In this document: positions 15,783 through 27,647 of the stretch, piece by piece
How the letters are laid out: each line of letters opens with the position of its first letter
Numbering within the stretch: the stretch's first letter is position 1
Origin: Gammaproteobacteria bacterium
GTDB taxonomy: Bacteria > Pseudomonadota > Gammaproteobacteria > Pseudomonadales > Pseudohongiellaceae
Length of the DNA: 38,896 nucleotides
NCBI GenBank assembly: GCA_028825335.1
Contig: JAPKAI010000018.1
Span: forward strand, 1 to 38,896
Direction: 5' to 3'
Notes under the pieces: generated by a model
Database searches by the model: none
Told to the model about the DNA's origin: nothing
Seen by the model: only the letters and a program-made list of their open reading frames with translations
Made by a program: the position numbers and the translations under genes

Positions 15783-18341
15783 ATGGCAGATGCAAAAATA
15801 AGTGAGCTCGCCGAAGTTGTCGGAGTCTCGGTAGACAAGCTGCTGTCTCAGATAAAAGAGGCAGGCCTGTCGCATACTAAAGCTGACGATTCGATTTCGA
15901 ACGACGACAAAAACACTTTATTGCAGTTTCTGCGACGTAGCCACGGAGACTCTGAGGCCAGCATCTCTGCGCCTAAGAAAATCACACTCAAGCGGAAGAC
16001 AGTTGGCACGCTTAAAGCGGCGTCCACACATGGCCGGGGCAAGACTGTTAACGTCGAGGTTCGTAAGAAGCGCACCTATGTAAAACGCAGCGCTGTCGTC
16101 GAAGATGCGCCAGAAGAATTAGAAGATGAGGCAGTAGTAGCTGCGGCAGGGAGTGCAGAAGAGGCCGCGGTAGATAGTAATGTTGAAGCGGCAACGGATA
16201 CTTCTAGCGCGGAGTCTGTGGAGACAGTAACAACAGAAGCTCCAGAAAAAGTCGGTGATGAAGTTCCTGCCAAAGATAAAGCCGCGCCAGAGGTGCCTGC
16301 CGAAGAAGCTGCTACAGCTAGAGACGACAAGCCAGGTGCGAAGCGTAAGGGGCAGGGCAAGAAAGACTCAGATGAACCCGGCGAGAAGAAAAAAGATCAT
16401 CTAAAGAATAAAGATAAGGCAGCCAAGCGACAGGCCAAAAATATTCATGTTAATGACGATTTCGTTTTAGAAGGCGGCGATGTTGAAGACATGGGCGGGC
16501 GTGGCCGAAGAGGCGGCGGCAGGAAAGGCAAGGCACGTCTATCTGCTACTCAACATGCCTTCGAGAAGCCAAAAGATTTTATTAAACGTGAAATCAAGAT
16601 TGGTGAAACCAACACATTGCAGGACCTAGCGCAGCAGATGTCGGTTAAGACAGCAGGGCTAGTGAAATCTCTGTTCAATATGGGTGTCATGGCAACGATC
16701 AATCAGATTATAGATCAAGATACGGCGTCATTATTGATTGAAGAGTTAGGCCATACACCGAAATTTGTATCCGAAGATGCGATCGAAGATCAATTGGCAG
16801 AATCGATCACTTCGGATACGGGTAAAGAAGAGATTACTCGTGCGCCGGTAGTTACAGTAATGGGCCACGTTGATCACGGCAAGACTTCTCTGTTGGACTA
16901 TATACGTAAATCAAAAGTCGCCTCGCACGAGGCCGGTGGTATCACGCAGCACATCGGTGCCTACCACGTGAATACCGATCACGGCATGATTAGTTTTCTT
17001 GATACACCTGGCCACGCGGCATTTACCGCGATGCGCTCTCGTGGAGCGAAGGCAACGGACGTAGTTGTCCTAGTAGTCGCCGCTGACGACGGTGTTAAGC
17101 CACAAACCGAAGAGGCTGTGCAGCACGCGAAAGCTTCCGGTGTAGCGCTAGTAGTAGCTGTCAACAAGATGGACAAAGAAGGCGTCGATGTAGATCGTGT
17201 TAAGAATGAATTGGCCGCTATGGAAGTTATCCCAGAGGATTGGGGTGGCGAGACGCAATTCATAGAAGTATCGGCAATTACCGGTGCGGGTGTCGATCAG
17301 TTGCTAGAAGCCATCAGCCTGCAGGCCGAGCTTTTGGAGTTAACGGCTTATACCGATGTTCCCGGTCAGGGTGTAGTAATTGAGTCCAGGCTAGACAAAG
17401 GACGCGGGCCAGTCGCCTCAGTTCTGGTGCAAAACGGTACATTAAAAACCGGCGACACTGTATTAGCTGGTCATGAATATGGCCGCGTCCGCGCTCTGGT
17501 TGACGAGGCGGGAAAGAATATTAAAACCGCGGGTCCTTCTATTCCTGTTGAGATTCTCGGCCTCAATGGTGTACCGGAAGCGGGTGATGAATTTGTTGTA
17601 GTAGCGGATGAGAAGAAGGCCCGAGAGATCGCGGAATTCAGACGCACGCGTCACAAAGATTCATTGCAGGCATCGCAGCAGTCGAACTTAGTTGAAAATA
17701 TGTTCGCCGGCATTGGCAAAGAAAACCTAAGTGTCTTCAATATCATCATCAAGACCGATGTGCGTGGCTCGCTTGAGGCGATCGTGGGTTCGTTGCAGAA
17801 ACTCAATACTGAAGAGGTTGAAGTCAACATCGTTGCCTCAGGTGTGGGTGGAATCTCGGAGACCGACGCGCACCTAGCAGCCACATCAAAGGCGACGGTA
17901 ATTGGCTTTAATGTGCGAGCTGATAAGTCCTCGCGCGATATTATTGAGAACGAAGGCCTGCAATTACGTTATTACAATGTCATATACGATGTGATCGATG
18001 ACACGAAGGCGATCATGAGCGGCATGCTGGCGCCAGAGATTCGCGAAGAGATTGTTGGCGTTGCGGAAGTTCGCGATGTCTTTAACTCGCCGAAGTTTGG
18101 TCAAATCGCCGGAAGCATGGTTATCGAAGGTACTGTCTATCGCAGCAAGCCGATACGTGTTCTGCGCGATGATGTGGTGATCTATGAAGGTGAACTCGAA
18201 TCACTGAGACGATTCAAGGACGATGCCAGCGAAGTTCGAAACGGCATTGAGTGCGGAATCGGCGTTCGTAACTACACTGACGTTAAAGTCGGCGACAAGA
18301 TTGAGGTATACGAGACAACTGAAGTGGCCAGGAGCCTTTGA
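15783..18341 (+). CDS. infB: Translation initiation factor IF-2
   Basis: GTPase that recruits fMet-tRNA to the 30S subunit and promotes 50S joining. It has 852 residues. An N-terminal IF2-N domain is followed by a long Ala/Glu/Lys-rich low-complexity linker (about residues 60-260), a second IF2-N motif and the G domain: GHVDHGKT at 361-368, DTPGH and NKMD. Domains II, III and the fMet-binding C-terminal domain follow. An alternative in-frame start for a shorter isoform, as in E. coli, is possible but not evident. A GGGAG ribosome site precedes ATG 15783. Confidence 0.98.
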
Positions 18342-18369
18342 GAATAAGTTCTCAAGCTGGTAATTAATC

Positions 18370-18795
18370 GTGGCTGATATGTCTCCAAGAGTGCAAAGAG
18401 TAGCTGATCAGATTCAGAGAGAACTGGCGTCCTTAATTCAGATGGAAGTAAACGATCCTCGGGTTGGCATGGTTTCGGTTACAGGGGTAGAGGTGAGCAA
18501 AGATTTGGCTCATGCCAAAGTGTTCGTGACGGTATTGAATACCCTGACCGATGATCCCCAGATAAATGAATCTACACTTTCCGAGCCTGGCGATCTTGAT
18601 AAGCTAGAGATAAAAGAGAATATAGATGCGTTGAATAAGGCTGCAGGGTTTTTGCGATCCTTATTGTCGAAACGACTGAGTACTCGTTCGGTGCCCAAGT
18701 TACGTTTTTACTACGACGGAAGTATAGCGCGCGGGCAGCAGCTTTCGAGCCTGATAGATAGCGCATTAGCAGCTGATCAAGATTCGCATTCTTGA
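18370..18795 (+). CDS. rbfA: 30S ribosome-binding factor RbfA
   Basis: Small KH-fold protein needed for 16S rRNA 5'-end maturation and cold adaptation. It has 141 residues: MSPRVQRVADQIQRELASLI at the start, DPRVGMVSVTGVEVSKDL in the KH core and LRFYYDGSIARGQQ near the end match the family. GTG at 18370 adds three residues before ATG 18379; neither has a strong Shine-Dalgarno sequence, so the exact start is open. It is 28 bp after infB and 33 bp before truB. Confidence 0.95.
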   Translation: MADMSPRVQRVADQIQRELASLIQMEVNDPRVGMVSVTGVEVSKDLAHAKVFVTVLNTLTDDPQINESTLSEPGDLDKLEIKENIDALNKAAGFLRSLLSKRLSTRSVPKLRFYYDGSIARGQQLSSLIDSALAADQDSHS

Positions 18796-18828
18796 GTTTG
18801 CTGTCGTTAGAGTTGATGGGGATGCAGA

Positions 18829-19743
18829 TTGGCTAAGCGCAAGAAAGGCAGAAGCATTGATGGCATCGTTATACTAGACAAAGCCATAGGCATTAGTTCA
18901 AACAGAGCTCTGCAGGAAGTAAAAAGAATTTTTGATGCCCAGAAGGCAGGGCATACAGGCAGTCTAGACCCATTAGCGACTGGAGTGCTGCCACTGTGCT
19001 TAGGTGAGGCGACCAAAGTATCTCAGTTCTTGCTGGATTCGGATAAGAAGTATCGAGCTAAACTGAAGCTGGGTGTTAGAACCGATAGCGGCGACTGCGA
19101 AGGAAACGTACTTGAAAGCTGTGCCAATTTTCAAATTTCGCAACTGCAGATTGAAGAGGCGCTGACACCATTTAGAGGCGAGATTGAGCAAGTGCCTCCC
19201 ATGTACTCCGCCTTGAAAGTAAACGGAGTGCCGCTGTATAAGATGGCGCGTAAAGGTCAAACTATAGAGCGCGAGGCTAGGCGGATCACCGTATACAGCA
19301 TCGAGCTGACAGCCTTCGAAGGCGACGAGCTGGAACTGGAGATCGCCTGTAGTAAGGGTACTTATATAAGAACCATCGCCGATGATCTCGGTCAGTCCTT
19401 GGGATGTGGAGCGCACATCATAGCCTTAAGGCGAACACAGGCAGGCGCATTCACAGAAGCGGACTGCGTAACAACACAGAAGTTGATGCAGGAGTTCGAA
19501 AGTGGCGGTTTGAGTGTCATCGATCAACATCTCATTCCGATGGACAAGGCTGTAGCGGACTTGCCAGAAGTTGTACTACCAAGCGTCACGGCTCGCTTTA
19601 TCAAGAATGGTCAGCCAGTTTTGGTTAGACACTTGCCAGAAGAAGGCTTGGTAAGATTGTACGAAGAGGAGCAATTTATCGGTATTGGCTGTATCGATGA
19701 TGATGGGAAGGTCGCTCCGCGAAGGTTAATAGTCGCGCACTGA
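18829..19743 (+). CDS. truB: tRNA pseudouridine(55) synthase
   Basis: Makes pseudouridine 55 in the T loop of elongator tRNAs and can act as a tRNA chaperone. It has 304 residues. The catalytic Asp47 lies in GHTGSLDPLATGVLP; further family blocks are YRAKLKLGVRTDSGD, PPMYSALKVNGVPLYKMAR and CSKGTYIRTIADDLG. A C-terminal PUA-like domain follows. TTG at 18829 is the start that fits a GGGGAT site at 18818-18823 and the conserved basic N-terminus; the nearby ATG at 18822 is out of frame. Confidence 0.96.
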   Translation: MAKRKKGRSIDGIVILDKAIGISSNRALQEVKRIFDAQKAGHTGSLDPLATGVLPLCLGEATKVSQFLLDSDKKYRAKLKLGVRTDSGDCEGNVLESCANFQISQLQIEEALTPFRGEIEQVPPMYSALKVNGVPLYKMARKGQTIEREARRITVYSIELTAFEGDELELEIACSKGTYIRTIADDLGQSLGCGAHIIALRRTQAGAFTEADCVTTQKLMQEFESGGLSVIDQHLIPMDKAVADLPEVVLPSVTARFIKNGQPVLVRHLPEEGLVRLYEEEQFIGIGCIDDDGKVAPRRLIVAH

Positions 19744-19836
19744 GTACTGTGTACGATGCCAAGCTAAGAATTCAACAGGGAAAGTATCAGGTAACTACTA
19801 ATATGCGTGGTTATTCTGAATTTAAACGGAAGTTGT

Positions 19837-19860
19837 AGTCGCGCCTTTTCAGCGACTTTA
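19837..19860 (+). terminator. Weak hairpin in the rpsO leader
   Basis: AGTCGC (19837-19842) pairs with GCGACT (19852-19857) around a nine-base loop and is followed by TTTA. It lies 28 bp before the rpsO ATG. It may be a weak terminator of the truB transcript or part of an rpsO leader structure; E. coli rpsO is autoregulated through its leader. Confidence 0.3.
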
Positions 19861-19885
19861 TTAATTGCATATTAGGAGATAGAAA

Positions 19886-20155
19886 ATGGCTTTATCAGCT
19901 GAACAGAAAGATACAATCGTCAAAGACTACGCGCAGAGCGAAGGTGATACAGGTTCACCCGAAGTGCAAGTGGCTTTGCTGACAGCAAATATCAATGAAC
20001 TGCAATCACACTTCAAAGAGCACATTCACGATCATCACTCCCGCCGTGGACTCATCCGAATGGTGAACAGCCGCAGGAAATTGCTTGACTACTTGAAGCG
20101 CAAAAATTTAGAACGTTATACCACTTTGATCAAGCGACTTGGACTACGTCGTTAA
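19886..20155 (+). CDS. rpsO: 30S ribosomal protein S15
   Basis: Primary 16S rRNA-binding protein of the 30S platform. Its 89 residues match the universal S15 length. The signatures [21 protein letters not shown] and [21 protein letters not shown], and the terminal [12 protein letters not shown], are present. A strong TTAGGAGATAG ribosome site precedes ATG 19886. It is followed by pnp, the classical rpsO-pnp pair. Confidence 0.98.
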
Positions 20156-20198
20156 CTGTTCAACTAACTTTGTCGATGACAATCAATCGTAAATATCT

Positions 20199-20227
20199 GC
20201 GCAGAGCCTGATGAGTTGGCTCTGCGC
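20199..20227 (+). promoter_or_regulatory. Perfect 10-bp hairpin in the rpsO-pnp gap
   Basis: GCGCAGAGCC (20199-20208) pairs perfectly with GGCTCTGCGC (20218-20227) around a nine-base loop. No T-run follows, so it is a poor intrinsic terminator. E. coli pnp has an RNase III-cleaved leader stem through which PNPase autoregulates; this hairpin, 25 bases before pnp, may serve the same role. Confidence 0.6.
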
Positions 20228-20252
20228 CTAATTAAATAATTAGGAAAATATT

Positions 20253-22364
20253 ATGTTTAATCCAGTAACTAAGACGTTTCAATTCGGTGGCAAGACGGTC
20301 ACTTTGGAAACCGGTAAAGTAGCGAGACAGGCAACAGGTTCTGTTGTCGTAACCATTGGAAATACTACGGTACTAGCGACCGTAGTGGGTCGAAAGAAAG
20401 CCAACCCTGGCGCGGCTTTTTTTCCACTGACAGTTAATTACCAGGAAAAAACTTACGCTGTAGGCAAAATTCCTGGAGGATTCTTCAAGCGCGAAGGCAG
20501 ACCAACTGAGAATGAAACCTTAACATCGCGTCTTATAGATCGTCCGATTCGTCCTTTGTTCCCGAAGGGATTTATGAATGAAGTGCAGGTAATTTGTACG
20601 GTAGTTTCTGCTGATAAAGATGAGCAGGCAGATATTGCAGGTTTGATAGGCGCATCAGCGGCCTTGTCTATTTCGGGCATACCTTTCGCAGAGCCAATTG
20701 GAGCTGCTCGCGTAGGCTACAATGCCGAAACTGGTTATTTCCTGAATCCTACCAATACCGAGCTCGCAACATCGCAGCTCGACATGGTCGTGGCAGGCAC
20801 AAAGTCAGCGGTTCTAATGGTTGAGTCTGAAGCGAAACAACTAAGCGAAGATCAAATGCTAGGCGCGGTTCTGTATGCTCATCAAGAGATGCAGGTTGTT
20901 GTCGACACGATCGCTGAACTGAAGGCAGAAATTGGCAAGCCAGCATGGGATTGGCAGCCTGAGCCCGTCAATGAAGAGTTAACTGCTGCCGTTGCAGCTC
21001 AAGTTGGAGCTGGCGTTACTGAGGCTTATCAAGTTTCTGACAAGATGGCTCGCCAGGATGCTCTTGGAGCATTGAAGACGCAGGCTGTTGAGCAACTAGC
21101 TAACGATGAGTCAGGTGTTAGTTCCGACGACGTAAAAGATGTTTTTGCGAAGCTGGAGAAAAGCACTGTACGCAACCGAGTATTAGATGGTAATCCACGT
21201 ATCGATGGTCGAGATACTACAACTGTTCGTGCAATCGAAGTTGAAACTGGAGTTCTACCTAAGGCTCACGGTTCTGCTTTGTTCACACGCGGCGAAACAC
21301 AGGCCTTGGTTGTAACTACACTTGGCGCACTGCGTGATTCGCAACTTATCGAAGACCTTCAGGGTTCGAGAAAAGACCCATTCATGTTGCACTATAACTT
21401 CCCTCCCTACTCTGTAGGCGAGACTGGTTTCATGAGCGGTCCGAAGCGACGTGAGATTGGCCACGGCCGTCTTGCTAGACGTGGCGTTGCTGCGGTTATG
21501 CCTCCGGAAGAAGAATTCCCGTATGCGATTCGTGTAGTTTCCGAAATCACCGAATCTAACGGTTCAAGCTCCATGGCGAGTGTCTGCGGAAGCAGCCTAG
21601 CAATGATGGATGCTGGTGTTCCTATCTCAGCTCCAGTTGCCGGTATTGCAATGGGCCTTATCAAGGAAGGCGAGCGTTTTGCAGTCCTAACAGATATCCT
21701 TGGTGATGAAGATCATCTTGGCGATATGGATTTCAAAGTTGCGGGAACAGCTGCGGGTATTACTGCTCTGCAGATGGATATCAAGATTCAGGGCATTACC
21801 GAAGAGATCATGGAGATTGCTCTCGAGCAGGCTCATACAGCTAGAAATCATATCCTGGACGAGATGAATAAAGTCATCTCAGTTGCTAGAGAAACAGTTT
21901 CTGATAACGCGCCTGCTATGGCGATGATCAAGATCGATACAGATAAGATTCGCGACGTTATCGGTAAGGGCGGTGCAGTTATCCGTGGCATTACTGAAGA
22001 GACTGGCGCATCTGTTGATATCGATGACGACGGTAATGTTCGCATTTACGGCGAAGACGCAGACTCTCGCGATGCTGCACTCGAGATGGTTAATGCTATT
22101 ACGGCAGAAGCCGAAGTAGGCAGGATCTACAATGGTAAGGTTGCAAGAATCGTCGACTTTGGCGCGTTCGTTACAATCTTACCTGGCAAAGATGGTTTGG
22201 TTCACATCTCTCAAATCTCGCAAGAGCGTGTAGAGAATGTAAATGAGCATTTAGAAGAGGGGCAGGACGTTCTAGTTAAGGTTCTAGACACCGATGCTAG
22301 AGGCCGTATCAAGCTGAGTATCAAGGAAATCAGTGAAGAGGAAAGAGCTGCACACGTAGCTTAA
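20253..22364 (+). CDS. pnp: Polyribonucleotide nucleotidyltransferase (PNPase)
   Basis: Phosphate-dependent 3'-5' exoribonuclease and component of the RNA degradosome. It has 703 residues (711 in E. coli). Two RNase PH-like halves (about 1-220 and 305-540) flank a helical linker; [20 protein letters not shown] and [17 protein letters not shown] are core motifs, and the second active site is near [16 protein letters not shown]. The C-terminus has a KH domain ([16 protein letters not shown]) and an S1 domain ([19 protein letters not shown]). TTAGGAAAA provides the ribosome site. Transcription ends at the hairpin about 20 bp downstream. Confidence 0.98.
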
Positions 22365-22461: not shown

Positions 22462-23550
22462 CTACGTAGTCGAACGCTCGCTGTTGCGAAATTCCGAAGG
22501 TGTCACTTTATGCCGCTCCTTGAATGCCTTGTTGAAGACAGATAATGAAACATATCCAACATCTAGTGCTATCGTAGATATCGGCGCATTGGTCTCACGC
22601 AGTCGTATACATGCATCCTCGATTCGATAATTATTTAAGAATTGATTGAAGTTTTTAAAATTCAGCTGCTGATTGATTACTCGTCGCAATCTGTATTCCT
22701 GAATAGACAAACTCTGCGCTAGGTCGGCAATAGTAAGGCCGGTGCGAGTGTAGATTTTGCCTCCTTTCATCGTTTGTTCAATCTTCTCGAGTAACGTAGG
22801 ATCGACATTCGTCTCGAAGTTGCCATTTTTACTCTTTCTGTTCTTAATGCTAATGCCAGTCGAGATAAGCGTGGTGGCTTCTTCGCTTAATTGAAATATG
22901 CGCTGGCAGAACAGAAATGTCACCACTAATATATAGAGTGATACCAGATAGTTTGGCACATCAGGTATCAGGTTTTGGCCCGGTTCTAGAATGAATCGAC
23001 TGAACAGATTGATGAAGTCGGAACCAACGATGACGACTAACAAGATGCTCATGATGAGTAAGAAGGTAAACCGAAGACGCCTGCGTTGTTCTGATAAATC
23101 TACGGAGTATCCCTGATACGCTAAATATAGGGTGTGTGTTGCAAACACCAACATGATCAGCTGGGGGATTATCTGTACTACTATGAAACTCGCGTTGTTA
23201 ATGGTCTCTGGGTTCAAGTAGAAAATGCCTATTCCGATCCCTCGTGTAAGTTCGAAGAAGACGATTGCCAGCCATGCGCCTAGATGAATTTTTTCGTCAT
23301 CGACAAATAGCGTGAATGCAATGATCCAGAGAATGAAGGGCGCTAGGGTTGCGAACCTAAAGAGTATGAAGATTGAAAGTAGATTGTTCGAGAAGAAGGG
23401 GATTCCCGCTAGCATGTAGGCGCTAAGACAGAAGCAATACAGAGATATCAGTCGCGCAAGTACCCCTTGATTGTGAACAAGAAAAAAGACCCCAATAAAA
23501 ATTAGCTGGAAGAAAGCGAGGATCGCAACTAGATCGGGAAATTGATTCAT
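22462..23550 (-). CDS. Membrane-anchored AraC-family transcriptional regulator
   Basis: 362 residues in two parts. Residues 1-220 contain about seven hydrophobic segments (near 8-24, 33-50, 57-82, 91-112, 119-145, 159-185 and 201-218). Residues 265-357 form a double helix-turn-helix AraC domain: the first HTH is at LTIADLAQSLSIQEYRLRRV, the second at PISTIALDVGYVSLSVFNKAF, ending in the family signature HKVTPSEFR. This is a one-component regulator with a membrane sensor. The ligand is unknown. It is divergent from the monooxygenase gene across a dyad-rich 737-bp gap, so regulation of that gene is a reasonable inference. No strong ribosome site precedes its ATG. Confidence 0.88.
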   Translation of the reverse strand: MNQFPDLVAILAFFQLIFIGVFFLVHNQGVLARLISLYCFCLSAYMLAGIPFFSNNLLSIFILFRFATLAPFILWIIAFTLFVDDEKIHLGAWLAIVFFELTRGIGIGIFYLNPETINNASFIVVQIIPQLIMLVFATHTLYLAYQGYSVDLSEQRRRLRFTFLLIMSILLVVIVGSDFINLFSRFILEPGQNLIPDVPNYLVSLYILVVTFLFCQRIFQLSEEATTLISTGISIKNRKSKNGNFETNVDPTLLEKIEQTMKGGKIYTRTGLTIADLAQSLSIQEYRLRRVINQQLNFKNFNQFLNNYRIEDACIRLRETNAPISTIALDVGYVSLSVFNKAFKERHKVTPSEFRNSERSTT

Positions 23551-23682
23551 TCGGAATGAAGATAGATTAGTGTGGCGGGCATTGCAACTAAGTTATAGCT
23601 TTCAGGTATTTCTGGATTCTTGGGAGTTTTACGAAGTAGGCAAATCGAAAATTCAAGCCACTTCATCTCTAAAACTAAAACA

Positions 23683-23707
23683 GTTGGGATAGAATTCCTA
23701 TCCCAAC
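23683..23707 (-). terminator. Intrinsic terminator on the minus strand
   Basis: GTTGGGATAG (23683-23692) and CTATCCCAAC (23698-23707) form a perfect 10-bp stem with a five-base loop. On the minus strand it is followed by TGTTTTAGTTTT. It lies 133 bp upstream of the AraC-type regulator, so it ends a transcript that starts before that gene: either a small RNA or an attenuated leader. Confidence 0.6.
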
Positions 23708-23921
23708 CGTTAGGTAGTCAACTTAGAAGTCGCACTTAGGCCTGCGCGAAAGTCTTTGCTAGAGCGCCACGTCTAGGACGTTGATCTATTACTGCGATTA
23801 TTACTCGTACCTTTCTACTCTAATTTATTTCGAGTAGCTCCTCGTATTTGAATTTTTACCGGAAATTCCAAAATCCATCAGTATCTTTTACAATATAATC
23901 GATAGCTAGGTCGCGCGTTCG

Positions 23922-23943
23922 AGCTGAATATGACTATTCAGCT
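23922..23943. promoter_or_regulatory. Perfect 9-bp inverted repeat, possible operator
   Basis: AGCTGAATA and TATTCAGCT are separated by TGAC. The dyad is 22 bp long and lies centrally between the two divergent genes. Its size suits a dimeric regulator, but AraC proteins often use direct repeats, so the binder is unknown. Confidence 0.35.
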
Positions 23944-24047
23944 AGTAGTCTTCTCTTACGATGCTGCTGACGTTGACCTGAAGCAGTGGTCCTGCGAAAG
24001 GCACAATCGGGAAAATCGCTGAAAAGCAGCAAAAATCATGGAATGAG

Positions 24048-24063
24048 TCGGTAAAAGTACCGA
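24048..24063. repeat. 6-bp inverted repeat (TCGGTA/TACCGA)
   Basis: The arms are separated by AAAG. It is one of several dyads in the gap before the monooxygenase gene, with no T-run. Function is not evident. Confidence 0.3.
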
Positions 24064-24232
24064 ATTACTGCAATATACAACAATTTCGAAAATTCTTTTG
24101 GCTCGTATAAGCGCTCTACTCTAAAATTCATCAAGATTAGTTCAGAATTCACAAGACAGCCCCGCCTAATTTTGGTTCAATTCCACTACTGAATAAACAG
24201 TTCTCCACGACTTTTCTAGATCAATCGAGACT

Positions 24233-24255
24233 TGTCTACCCGCTCGGGTAGGACA
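24233..24255 (+). promoter_or_regulatory. Hairpin in the leader of the monooxygenase gene
   Basis: TACCCG (24237-24242) pairs with CGGGTA (24245-24250), and TGTC/GACA extend the stem across one bulged G. It ends about 33 bp before the GTG start. It is not a terminator; it could be an operator or an mRNA-stabilising stem. Confidence 0.4.
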
Positions 24256-24287
24256 GGTCAAAGAACCACTAAATAAAGGATCCGCCA

Positions 24288-25754
24288 GTGTTAACTACAA
24301 GCTATCGATCAATATTCTGCAAATTGGTAAAGCTATCTCAGGCTTTCGCTATTTTATCCGTGTTGTCTTTGCCGAATCTGGCAACTGCTCAATCGGATCA
24401 AGTCACATTCCACAAGGATATCGAGCCCATTCTGCAGCGCAGCTGTCAGAACTGTCATCGCCCTGGTGGTGTCGGCCCTATGCCGCTAGTGTCATACGAC
24501 GAAGTGGCACCTTTTGCTGGACTGATCGAATACAAGACCGCACTGCGTGATAGAGCAGGAGCGATGCCGCCATGGTATATGGAAAAGAACATCGGTATTC
24601 AGGACTTTAAATTCGACCCGTCATTGAGCGATGCAGAGCTCGCAGCTATCTCAACCTGGGCGCGAAGTGGAACGCCCAAAGGTGATCCAGCAGATGCGCC
24701 TGTAGCTCTAGCCTTCAGCGATGATCTGAAGTGGACGGCTGGTCAACCTGACCTCGTTGTTAGCACAAACGCTGTAACCAAATTAGCAGGTACTCCTGAT
24801 TGGTGGGGTGAGATTGATAGGATAGAAATCCCCATAGATCAAGATCGCTATGTGAAGTCTGTGGAAATCGTTGAAGTCAACGATGTGAACTACACTGCCG
24901 GCACAGGTCGAGACACCGTTGGCGGCAGGTACATATTTCACCACATGATCTGGTCAACGGCCGAGATAGACGAAAACGGGCAGCGTATCGCAGAGACTGC
25001 AACCGGCTGGCCAGTACATGAAGTAGGGCGCAACGCAGACATTTTCGATGTGGACGGTGGGCGTCTACTTAAAGCTGGCACCTTCCTCGTTTCTGATTCT
25101 GTTCATATGCATTCGAATGGCAAAGACACAACAGCACACTTGGAAGTTGGGTTTCGTTTTCATCCGGTTGGTTACGAGCCAAAGTATGAGCGCGTTAGTT
25201 TGGGACTAGGCAATGGAGTGGACATTAGTATTGCTGGCAACGAAGATGCACAGGAACTGCATGCCTATACCGTTCTCCAAGACCACCTAAAGATCATTAC
25301 ATTCGAGCCACATTTGCACGCCCCTGGCGAGCGCATGTGTCTTGAAGCGATATGGGGATATACAGTAGAGACACTTTCCTGTGTTGGTTATGACCATAAC
25401 TGGGTACGTGGCTATGCGTACGATAACGATGCGCAACCTCTGTTGCCGAAGGGAACTATTCTCCACATCGTCGGTTACATGAATAATACTGAAACCAACC
25501 CCAATGTACCTGACCCAAGGAATTGGCAGGGGTCTGGTAATCGATCCGTAACCAATATGTTTATCGATTTGGGCATGCGGGTAAAAATGGATGACGAGCA
25601 ATTTTTCGAAGAGATGGAAAATCGCCGTCAGACACTAAATCTTGGACCAAACGATCACGTGATCGGTTGTCCATTATGTTTGGCGCCACTTGTTGCGCCG
25701 GTAAATTCCACCGAAGAAATAAGTAATGAAGTTGCATTGCAGGGAACAAATTAG
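24288..25754 (+). CDS. Secreted cytochrome c / type II copper monooxygenase-like protein
   Basis: 488 residues with a signal peptide (about 1-35, cleavage near ATAQS). A heme c motif CQNCH lies at 53-57, with an MPPWYM segment that may give the axial Met. From about 150 the protein resembles the peptidylglycine monooxygenase dicopper fold: HH at 218-219 and His275 (in VHMH) fit the CuH site; His342 and His344 (in EPHLH) plus Met398 fit the CuM site, in the order and approximate spacing of the PHM ligands. It would act in the periplasm, with the heme passing electrons. GTG 24288 is 7 bases after AAAGGA. The next gene is 2 bp downstream. Substrate unknown; the ligand assignment is by motif. Confidence 0.82.
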   Translation: MLTTSYRSIFCKLVKLSQAFAILSVLSLPNLATAQSDQVTFHKDIEPILQRSCQNCHRPGGVGPMPLVSYDEVAPFAGLIEYKTALRDRAGAMPPWYMEKNIGIQDFKFDPSLSDAELAAISTWARSGTPKGDPADAPVALAFSDDLKWTAGQPDLVVSTNAVTKLAGTPDWWGEIDRIEIPIDQDRYVKSVEIVEVNDVNYTAGTGRDTVGGRYIFHHMIWSTAEIDENGQRIAETATGWPVHEVGRNADIFDVDGGRLLKAGTFLVSDSVHMHSNGKDTTAHLEVGFRFHPVGYEPKYERVSLGLGNGVDISIAGNEDAQELHAYTVLQDHLKIITFEPHLHAPGERMCLEAIWGYTVETLSCVGYDHNWVRGYAYDNDAQPLLPKGTILHIVGYMNNTETNPNVPDPRNWQGSGNRSVTNMFIDLGMRVKMDDEQFFEEMENRRQTLNLGPNDHVIGCPLCLAPLVAPVNSTEEISNEVALQGTN

Positions 25755-25756
25755 AT

Positions 25757-26746
25757 ATGCAAAGTTTAAAAATTAGAAGCACGAGCAAGACTTTTAGGTT
25801 TTTCGTAATCGCGCTTGGTGCTGCGGTTCTATCACCGTTGGTATCAGCAGATACCTACCGTAGTGGTCAGCACATCGAGCCGGCATTTGAAGGTTGGCGG
25901 CCAAACGAAGATGGCACATTCAACATGATGTTCGGTTACATGAACGAGAACTGGGAAGAAGAGCCAAACGTCGATGTTGGCGAAAACAATATGTTTTCTC
26001 CGGGCGACTCTGATCGTGGTCAGCCGACTCACTTCCTTCCGCGCCGCAATCGCTTTACCTTCGAAGTTCAGGTTCCTTCTGATTGGGGTGATCGCGAGCT
26101 GGTATGGACGCTAAGTGTGAATGGGGTTGATCGCAAAGCCTACGGAACATTAAAGGACGATTACCTGGTCGACAATATGGTGATTGCATCGGAGACAGGC
26201 TCTCTGGGTGCTGGAACTAGTAGCCCTGAATCGCGCGCGAATCTACCGCCGGTAACTACGGTTCAAGGTGATGATATCCGTACAGTAAGAGTGGGCCAGG
26301 CTATGACTTTGCGCACTCATGTTGTCGACGATGGCATTCCTACTCCTACCGATCCAGTTGAGCAAGCTAGAGAGTTTGCTGAGTTTGTCGGCGGTCCTCT
26401 TGCGGTTGCTTTTGTAACTGAAGAAAATGTTCGCCAACGTCTTCTGATGTCGCCACCAATAAAGGTGACGGTCCAAAAAATTAACGGATTGTTCCTGTCA
26501 TGGAATGTTTATCGCGGAGCAGGTGATGTTCAGTTCAGCCCGCAGCAAGCTAAGCCATGGGAGGATACTCGTGCTGGAGCACATTCTCCTTGGGGAACAC
26601 TCTGGATGCCGCCACCAAGTCCAGAAGATGGTATGCATGATGTGGAAGTGACTTTCGATGAACCTGGAACCTATGTGCTATGGGGACGGGCCGATGATGG
26701 TGGTCTCTATGACGATGCCTATATCACGGTGAACGTGACTGAATAG
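25757..26746 (+). CDS. Secreted protein of unknown function, partner of the monooxygenase-like protein
   Basis: 329 residues. A signal peptide (about 1-31, ending VSADTY) is followed by a beta-rich, Trp/Asn-rich exported domain containing FEGWRPNEDGTFNMMFGY and NRFTFEVQVPSDW. The final segment, DVEVTFDEPGTYVLWGRADD, looks like an immunoglobulin-like or cupredoxin-like strand pair, but no copper-ligand set is seen. It starts 2 bp after the upstream gene and is closed by a terminator, so the two form an operon and presumably work together in the periplasm. I do not recognise the family; an accessory or scaffold role is inference. Confidence 0.8.
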   Translation: MQSLKIRSTSKTFRFFVIALGAAVLSPLVSADTYRSGQHIEPAFEGWRPNEDGTFNMMFGYMNENWEEEPNVDVGENNMFSPGDSDRGQPTHFLPRRNRFTFEVQVPSDWGDRELVWTLSVNGVDRKAYGTLKDDYLVDNMVIASETGSLGAGTSSPESRANLPPVTTVQGDDIRTVRVGQAMTLRTHVVDDGIPTPTDPVEQAREFAEFVGGPLAVAFVTEENVRQRLLMSPPIKVTVQKINGLFLSWNVYRGAGDVQFSPQQAKPWEDTRAGAHSPWGTLWMPPPSPEDGMHDVEVTFDEPGTYVLWGRADDGGLYDDAYITVNVTE

Positions 26747-26776
26747 CATTCGCTTGATATTTCAATGAATGCTACT

Positions 26777-26804
26777 AAAAAAGGGCGGTTTACCGCCCTT
26801 TTTT
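26777..26804 (+). terminator. Intrinsic terminator of the monooxygenase operon
   Basis: AAAAAAGGGCGG (26777-26788) pairs perfectly with CCGCCCTTTTTT (26793-26804) around TTTA. It is one of the strongest hairpins in the window and may work in both directions. Confidence 0.95.
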
Positions 26805-26891: not shown

Positions 26892-27647
26892 ATGAACAAT
26901 CTGTTGAGTAAAACGATTAGCAAGGTGGTGCTTTTGTAGCGAATTTCATTTTCGCAGGAATGGTATTGGCAGACGGACACACGGCGATAGAAAAAGCACT
27001 GGCCAACGAAGCTAGGCCAGAGGCGGATAGACAGAGAGATGCGAATAGAAAGCCAGAGCAGGTGCTCGAATTCTTCGGAATAGAACCTGACATGAAAGTA
27101 ATAGATATATTTGCAGGTGGCGGATATTACGCTGAAATACTCAGCTATGTTGTAGGGGTAGATGGCGAGGTGACTCTCTACAACAATGGAGGCTGGGATG
27201 GCTTTGTTGGCGCCGGCGTAGAAGAAAGGCTCGAAGGGAATCGATTTTCCAACTTACAGAGTATTGTCATGGACGCAAATTAATTGCTCCTTGAAGAAAA
27301 TTACTACGATGCGGCTGTGTTCGTTCTGGGCTTCCACGACTTATATTATGAAGAGGCTAGCTGGCCTGCTATCGATGCCGCTGATTTTTCTGAGAGACTC
27401 TAAGGATTTCTAAAACCAGGCAGAATCTTAGATATCGTAGATCATGCCGCCGGATCGGGTGTTAGTGTGGATGTTGCGAACGCATTGCACAGGATCGATC
27501 CGGGCATCATTCGTAGCGATCTAATTTCTGCTGGATTCAAATTCGTTGCTGAGTCAGATGTCTTGCGCAATCAAGCCGATGAGCGATCCAAGTGTCCGCG
27601 GTAAAACCGACAGAGTAGTGATGAAGTTTAGGAAGCCCGATTCTTAA
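26892..27647 (+). pseudogene. Decayed exported SAM-dependent methyltransferase
   Basis: The ATG at 26892 starts a signal-peptide-like MNNLLSKTISKVVLL that hits TAG at 26937; the sequence resumes in another frame as ANFIFAGMVLADGHT. The SAM motif VIDIFAGGGYYAEIL is intact, but in-frame stops lie at 27281 (TAA) and 27401 (TAA). Between and after them the same frame still encodes family-like segments (AAVFVLGFHDLYY, GFLKPGRILDIVDH). A second frameshift near 27585 moves the conserved end DPSVRGKTDRVVMKFRKP to another frame, stopping at 27647. Four lesions indicate an old pseudogene. The family is exported methyltransferases of unknown substrate. The longest remaining open piece is 26960-27283. 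Confidence 0.85.

Follow-up and report, generated by a model that had tools for sequence, protein, structure and literature searches.

A heme c-fused, predicted dicopper monooxygenase with a linked partner protein and a possible membrane AraC regulator in Pseudohongiellaceae

The window analysed here, a stretch of 38,896 nucleotides, is a single contig (C81; GenBank JAPKAI010000018.1, assembly GCA_028825335.1) of a 2.97 Mb draft genome from a gammaproteobacterium of the family Pseudohongiellaceae, and it carries three neighbouring genes, denoted P1, P2 and P3. P2 is probably, with a likelihood that we would place at about 0.6, a dicopper monooxygenase of the periplasm or cell surface which is fed by its own heme, with P3 as a dedicated partner and P1 as a possible regulator. 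The animal relatives of the P2 core, peptidylglycine alpha-hydroxylating monooxygenase (PHM) and dopamine beta-hydroxylase (DBH), are textbook copper enzymes which depend on ascorbate, and which finish peptide hormones and make noradrenaline.

An earlier, sequence-only reading had placed three genes here, with P1 divergent and only 2 bp separating P2 from P3, and this layout was borne out by three intact open reading frames (ORFs) at the same coordinates:

22462 to 23550, minus strand: P1, ORF of 362 amino acids with seven N-terminal hydrophobic segments and a C-terminal AraC-type helix-turn-helix; candidate local regulator
24288 to 25754, plus strand: P2, ORF of 488 amino acids; heme c–dicopper protein with predicted PHM/DBH fold and a signal-like start
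25757 to 26746, plus strand: P3, ORF of 329 amino acids; partner of P2, predicted to have two Ig-like (immunoglobulin-like) domains, with a signal-like start

P1 and P2 point away from each other across 737 bp. Against the relative L010, ratios of nonsynonymous to synonymous substitution (dN/dS) were 0.17 for P1, 0.07 for P2 and 0.06 for P3, the P1 value coming from this single pair, with dS saturated against L054 and L016; all three genes look to be under purifying selection.

Predicted fold of P2

An AlphaFold2 model of P2, built from a 49-sequence alignment, scored 83.7 in the predicted local distance difference test (pLDDT) and 0.76 in predicted template modelling score (pTM). When this model was compared with the PDB by Foldseek, rows 1–30 were all PHM or DBH, with E values from 1.3e-9 to 3.0e-6, while rows 31–43 were unrelated proteins with E below 0.001 yet query-normalised TM-scores of 0.19 or less. 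In the VIA comparison, ranks 1–26 were again PHM or DBH, at Z 14.0–17.6, and the best unrelated row reached 8.3; PHM 6ala_A gave Z 17.6 (root-mean-square deviation (rmsd) 2.7, 242 aligned) and DBH 4zel_A gave Z 17.1 (rmsd 3.7, 291 aligned). The PHM-like part of the model comprises residues ~152–439, which are predicted to have the PHM/DBH fold, so that the dicopper core first proposed from the letters of the sequence was upheld by structure prediction.

Copper and heme sites of P2

Copper type II monooxygenases hold two coppers about 11 Å apart across an open cleft, and in PHM and DBH one of these, CuH, accepts electrons one by one, while the other, CuM, binds O2. M314 is a CuM ligand of PHM, and the PHM motifs HH, QVHY, HxH and DEMC carry the PHM residue numbers used here. 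The predicted sites in P2 are as follows, with conservation given among 49 P2 homologues:

24444 to 24458, plus strand: heme c attachment motif C53-Q-N-C56-H57, read from the sequence as CQNCH
24564 to 24566, plus strand: M93 of the MPP motif, proposed distal heme ligand, invariant in the 49 sequences
24939 to 24944, plus strand: H218-H219, CuH ligands (PHM H107-H108), 49/49, register via L122
25104 to 25106, plus strand: H273, third CuH ligand (PHM H172), 49/49, register via L122
25311 to 25319, plus strand: H342-x-H344, CuM ligands (PHM H242, H244), 45/49, register via L122
25557 to 25559, plus strand: M424, CuM ligand (PHM M314), 48/49 with one gap, aligned with DEMC via L122

The register between P2 and PHM is provided by a bridging protein, L122:1162-2403 (minus strand), a heme c–Cu2_monooxygenase protein of 414 amino acids in which the DEMC and QVHY motifs are strong; its source is a 2.1 Mb genome that belongs to a different family of the same phylum. 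The protein scores 177 bits against the P2 profile in a match of nearly full length, passes the Pfam Cu2_monooxygen (PF01082) cut-off (33.9 versus 30 bits) and matches PHM chains directly by sequence (1opm, E 2.8e-7); its genome is the only one with a Cu2_monooxygen match among 398 genomes of the phylum. The HH, QVHY, HxH and DEMC motifs of this protein align with those of PHM, and the same columns hold H218/H219, H273, H342/H344 and M424 of P2. In a published PHM study, H107, H108 and H172 are given as the CuH ligands, and H242 and H244 were seen as copper ligands in the H108A structure (PMC6123673). Among the copper ligands that had been listed for P2 from its sequence, H218, H219, H342 and H344 were retained, but H275 and M398 were rejected in favour of H273 and M424, on both conservation (residue 275 is His in 26/49 homologues and residue 398 is Met in 18/49) and the PHM register. 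Judged from the fold match and this register, the six-member ligand set of P2 is complete.

The heme c motif CQNCH had also been recognised beforehand, and was found at residues 53–57, with C, C and H of CxxCH each present in 48/49 homologues (one gap); the MPP motif is invariant in all 49, divergent paralogues included. Class I cytochromes c have Met as their distal heme ligand, and by analogy M93 is probably the second (distal) ligand of the P2 heme. Among the 32 members of alignment A1, a cytochrome c Pfam model matches 29 (E up to 1, best 2.3e-5) and Cu2_monoox_C matches six (E up to 1, best 2.9e-6). Both P2 and P3 begin with stretches which, judged by eye, resemble signal peptides, and both would be exported. 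A C-terminal GCPLC motif, with C461 and C464 (25668–25679), is kept in the close P2 group and is absent from the divergent paralogues in alignment A1; it may be a metal site or a disulphide.

The P3 partner protein

A co-oriented P3 begins no more than 1 kb downstream of P2 at 85 of the 91 close P2 genes, which have at least 52% identity and come from 37 genomes within a 59-genome sample of the family; this and the other linkage counts cover the stronger rows only, among the matches listed (91 for P2, 109 for P3 and 74 for P1). At an E value of 0.001, P2 was matched in 39 and P3 in 37 of the 59 genomes in the family sample. Speaking against a fixed P2–P3 pair, 20/109 P3 rows are without P2 within 1.5 kb among the matches listed.

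The P3 model (pLDDT 89.1, pTM 0.82) has two parts resembling Ig-like sandwiches, and its fold search returned only Ig-like folds, with no row reaching Z 8. The description of P3 as a protein of no recognised family holds for P3 itself, for which no Pfam match was obtained, but not for all of its relatives, since PKD was recognised in 7/43 at E up to 0.1 (the best at 1.5e-6); a further Pfam domain, YtkA, was matched by 2/43 (E up to 0.1). When the P3 profile was run against the PDB the best match was a glycoside hydrolase family 97 enzyme (E 0.0054). As a dedicated partner of P2, P3 would perhaps hold the substrate or the complex.

The P1 regulator

Two regions were delimited in P1:

22894 to 23550, minus strand: membrane region, residues 1–219, from Kyte-Doolittle segments
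22483 to 22722, minus strand: AraC DNA-binding domain, residues 277–356, from Pfam HTH_18

The seven membrane segments fused to an AraC domain that had been ascribed to P1 were both recovered: Kyte-Doolittle analysis gave seven hydrophobic segments with starts near residues 7, 30, 60, 94, 120, 162 and 201, and HTH_18 matched at E 2.8e-17 (63.2 bits against a cut-off of 33.6), accompanied by HTH_AraC at E 1.4e-8. Judged by hydropathy, 6 to 8 such segments are present in 23/23 P1 relatives of more than 330 amino acids, P1 included.

P1-like genes are strongly enriched close to P2 and P3, with 37 of the 74 lying within 7 kb, where 0.98 would be expected, and 28 within 2 kb, where 0.39 would be expected, chance here being computed from rounded genome sizes. 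All 74 rows come from the 37 genomes that contain close P2, a confinement which kinship of these genomes may explain. Within the 37 rows near P2/P3, the gene most often stands co-oriented within 1 kb downstream of P3 (22 rows), and the arrangement of the window, divergent beside P2, is found in a minority of four. Counted from P2, 22/91 genes have P1 within 7 kb.

Gene family and paralogue contexts

The genome under study gave 24 matches to P2, counted by contig and open frame as up to 22 genes, several of which are cut at contig ends, and the 37 genomes with close P2 contain 10 to 29 matches each. High numbers were also obtained from single-contig genomes (27 matches in G348 and 17 in G331), which argues that the copy number is no artefact of fragmentation. 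Three paralogues from the same genome as P2 pass the PF03712 (Cu2_monoox_C) cut-off. A P2 match at E 0.001 was obtained from 82 of 299 genomes of the phylum (up to five candidates scored per genome); long matches came only from this genome, G259 and G096, the others being short and mostly covering the heme end. Six of the 32 A1 members, such as L108:3506-5206 (minus strand) and its relatives, possess an N-terminal redoxin domain (AhpC-TSA), and as a profile these redoxin-type paralogues match DBH (E 2.2e-6). Plasmid records contained no match for P2 or for L108:3506-5206.

The 80 P2 loci compared were the best 80 of 522 and no random sample, and 30 further loci were chosen by hand, so that counts over the 121 P2-like proteins are not frequencies. 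The neighbour labels pyrroloquinoline quinone (PQQ), NHL, SURF1, CopC, TonB and pnp denote BLAST clusters, and Pfam scans covered some of their members; the pnp cluster was named from translation, with no member Pfam-scanned. In a FastTree tree of the 121 proteins, a single clade of 22 (support 0.935) takes in all 21 that have a SURF1-cluster gene in their neighbourhood. One paralogous cluster, L101:5361-13307, whose P2 is of the type that forms this clade, comprises two DUF6644-like membrane proteins (one above the Pfam cut-off), SURF1, P2, P3 in two copies and a pair of CopC genes on opposite strands, and at L194 the order is CopC, P2, P3, TonB receptor, a second plug protein and P1. A PQQ dehydrogenase lies within 3 kb of 10/121 P2-like proteins by cluster label (6/15 cluster members scanned, all six PQQ). 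Divergent P2 paralogues are found near PQQ alcohol dehydrogenases at L005, L107, L109, L174 and L176 (scanned) and at L104 and L177 (cluster label), and two of these dehydrogenases carry a cytochrome c domain. The SURF1 and CopC genes next to one paralogue, like the PQQ dehydrogenases next to others, are in keeping with copper and heme enzymes of a catabolic periplasmic pathway, and the PQQ alcohol dehydrogenases in particular fit a scheme in which an alcohol is made and then oxidised.

NHL proteins occur within 3.5 kb of 13/121 P2-like proteins by cluster label (7/18 cluster members scanned, all seven NHL), with NHL propellers near divergent paralogues at L105, L107, L108, L176 and L178. As one of them aligns with the PAL half of PAM at E 9.3e-20 (3fvz), P2 could be imagined as a hydroxylase of the PHM type whose targets are the glycine ends of peptides or fatty-acyl compounds, with PAL-like propellers completing a bacterial alpha-amidation route. 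We regard this as highly unlikely, given that the same protein fits unrelated NHL proteins better (6d69, 2.2e-30), that NHL is a generic propeller, and that the P2 of the window has no NHL gene nearby by cluster label.

Proposed function and its alternatives

In the mechanism proposed here, P2 would be loaded with heme and copper, and electrons from the respiratory chain would enter at the heme (C53/C56/H57, with M93 as probable second ligand) and pass to CuH (H218, H219 and H273), while O2 would be bound at CuM (H342, H344 and M424) and a C–H bond of the substrate hydroxylated. The electron donor of PHM is ascorbate; the presence of an N-terminal heme in P2 suggests a different donor, and by analogy the heme may take over from ascorbate as electron source, as the sequence-only reading had also supposed. 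P1 would be a membrane one-component regulator which may adjust the divergent P2–P3 operon of this strain to an envelope signal.

Several results weigh against this assignment. Searched by sequence against solved structures, P2 found no PHM or DBH, the best match being 9if7_L8 at E 0.51. The A1 profile likewise found neither in the PDB, giving three weak short matches, of which the best (E 0.023) fell on a part of hydrazine synthase that is of cytochrome type. A Pfam scan of P2 gave no copper-monooxygenase match (PF01082/PF03712), and its Cytochrome_CBB3 match is below the cut-off (21.6 versus 27 bits). PHM was thus reached solely by way of the fold and the L122 bridge. P2 by itself passes no Pfam cut-off, but fold and ligands fit, and for this reason it is placed as a divergent relative within the superfamily and not filed as PHM/DBM. 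The genomic context raises similar points: PQQ, SURF1, CopC and NHL genes are all absent by cluster label from the surroundings of the window locus, only fragments of P1 were found at L009, L011 and L013, and five P3–P1 clusters (L190–L193 and L200) exist without P2, some of them with a TonB receptor and CopC-cluster genes. In these five, P3 or P1 may work with a different partner.

To the same side belongs the loss of the CuM HxH pair from 4/49 homologues (alignment A2), from which it follows that not every P2 homologue can be a PHM-like enzyme; the four may be non-catalytic or one-copper proteins. Column counts give R and N at these positions in three homologues and K and S in one. This loss, the presence in paralogous clusters of SURF1, which serves oxidase assembly, and of the copper carrier CopC, and the consideration that a heme beside copper sites could simply reduce copper, would all suit a P2 that has retained fold and metal sites without being an oxygenase, and that acts instead in envelope housekeeping of copper or redox state, e.g. 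copper delivery or reduction during respiratory oxidase assembly. We consider such a role unlikely, while giving it more weight than the other alternatives: both CuM histidines are retained in 45/49 homologues, the window locus has neither SURF1 nor CopC by cluster label, and 10 to 29 matches per genome, together with PQQ dehydrogenase and TonB receptor neighbours, are better suited to catabolism.

The distribution of P1 raises a further alternative. In the window the three genes adjoin translation and RNA genes at 15783–22364, namely infB, rbfA, truB and pnp (named from translations), and among the 49 loci with both P2 and a pnp-cluster gene, window included, P3 is present at 46, whereas P1 is present at six and missing from 43, a further point against our assignment; at one of the six, L038, P1 is on the far side of P2 and cut by a contig end. 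Since P1 is found at few of these loci and P3 at most, we treat P2–P3 as the unit and P1 as an optional regulator: the association of P1 with P2/P3 across the family is real, and the regulator is dispensable. The expectation that all three genes would co-occur is therefore supported by P3 after 85/91 P2 genes and by P1 near P2/P3 in 37/74 cases, but fails for P1 at the pnp loci (6/49) and for the divergent arrangement (4/37). That enrichment, and the P3–P1 clusters without P2, could also be explained if P1, P2 and P3 formed a sensing unit, in which P2–P3 detects or modifies an envelope signal read by P1 and oxidation is incidental. This appears improbable to us, in view of the contrast between P1 and P3 at the pnp loci and of the small share of P2 genes with P1 within 7 kb (22/91), and a local regulator beside catabolic genes does not require that the enzyme itself takes part in sensing.

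Returning to P2 as a heme-fed monooxygenase, the contexts of its paralogues allow a wider proposal, which we advance tentatively and at somewhat less than an even chance: one marine gammaproteobacterial family may have multiplied a dicopper monooxygenase fused to heme c until each genome holds at least ten copies, with nearly thirty as the upper end, and may have coupled it to the respiratory chain in place of ascorbate and deployed it in periplasmic pathways with P3, followed by either a PQQ alcohol dehydrogenase or an NHL propeller, with TonB receptors as feeders and seven-helix AraC membrane regulators as switches. If true, this would constitute a so far undescribed system for oxidation of dissolved organic matter in the outer compartment, and the presence of at least ten paralogues per genome in a group of marine bacteria would suggest that a way of oxidising organic compounds in sea water has been overlooked. 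A heme-carrying bacterial relative of PHM and DBH would also show an alternative way to drive uncoupled dicopper chemistry, and P2 would serve as a model in the long debate on how electrons pass between the two coppers; the L122 protein is a good candidate for a solved structure.

Sequences surrounding the genes

The region between P1 and P2 was compared with that of relatives by blastn, and one conserved stretch was found:

24117 to 24285, plus strand: stretch upstream of P2, 76–82% alike in L009, L010 and L013

Shorter similar pieces of it occur in further relatives, and it is perhaps the promoter and leader of P2. A 15-pair inverted repeat at 23679–23711, also between P1 and P2, was considered as an operator and rejected, its exact core being found nowhere else in the 207 records compared, L010 included; the four matches of the core search were the same place in the window and overlapping loci. 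A TonB receptor remnant was sought between P1 and P2, with a best match of only E 0.19. Downstream, at 26930–27645 (plus strand), there is a decayed methyltransferase gene with in-frame stops, and open homologues of ~250 amino acids follow P2–P3 in L016, L018 and L029.

Comparison with known systems

For the terms tried, the open full-text literature yielded neither a description nor a characterised member of a heme c-fused PHM-like architecture. The nearest characterised protein is the PHM half of PAM, which is like P2 in predicted fold (Z 17.6) and in the HH/QVHY/HxH/DEMC register, while P2 differs in having an N-terminal cytochrome c domain, a bacterial host, the P3 partner and no direct sequence match. 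DBH (4zel) has the two-domain copper core in common with P2 (Foldseek E 1.3e-9; Z 17.1), but carries a DOMON domain in front where P2 has cytochrome c, and the DBH substrate is unlikely to be that of P2. The heme–copper layout is shared by those bacterial Cu2_monoox_C proteins that carry a cytochrome c or redoxin domain (the paralogues, L121 and L122); the close P2 group is set apart from them by its linkage to P3 and by its C461/C464 pair.

A heme domain that feeds a copper oxygenase outside the cytoplasm is also known from cellobiose dehydrogenase and lytic polysaccharide monooxygenase (LPMO), a system that is unlike P2 in using one copper, separate proteins, a b-type heme and a polysaccharide substrate. 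ToxR and CadC, similarly, combine a membrane sensor and a DNA-binding domain in a single chain, but do so with one helix and an N-terminal winged helix, in contrast to the seven hydrophobic segments and C-terminal AraC domain of P1. By predicted fold and ligands P2 is a divergent relative within a known superfamily, and what appears to be new is the heme fusion, the P3 partner, the copy number and the membrane AraC regulator.

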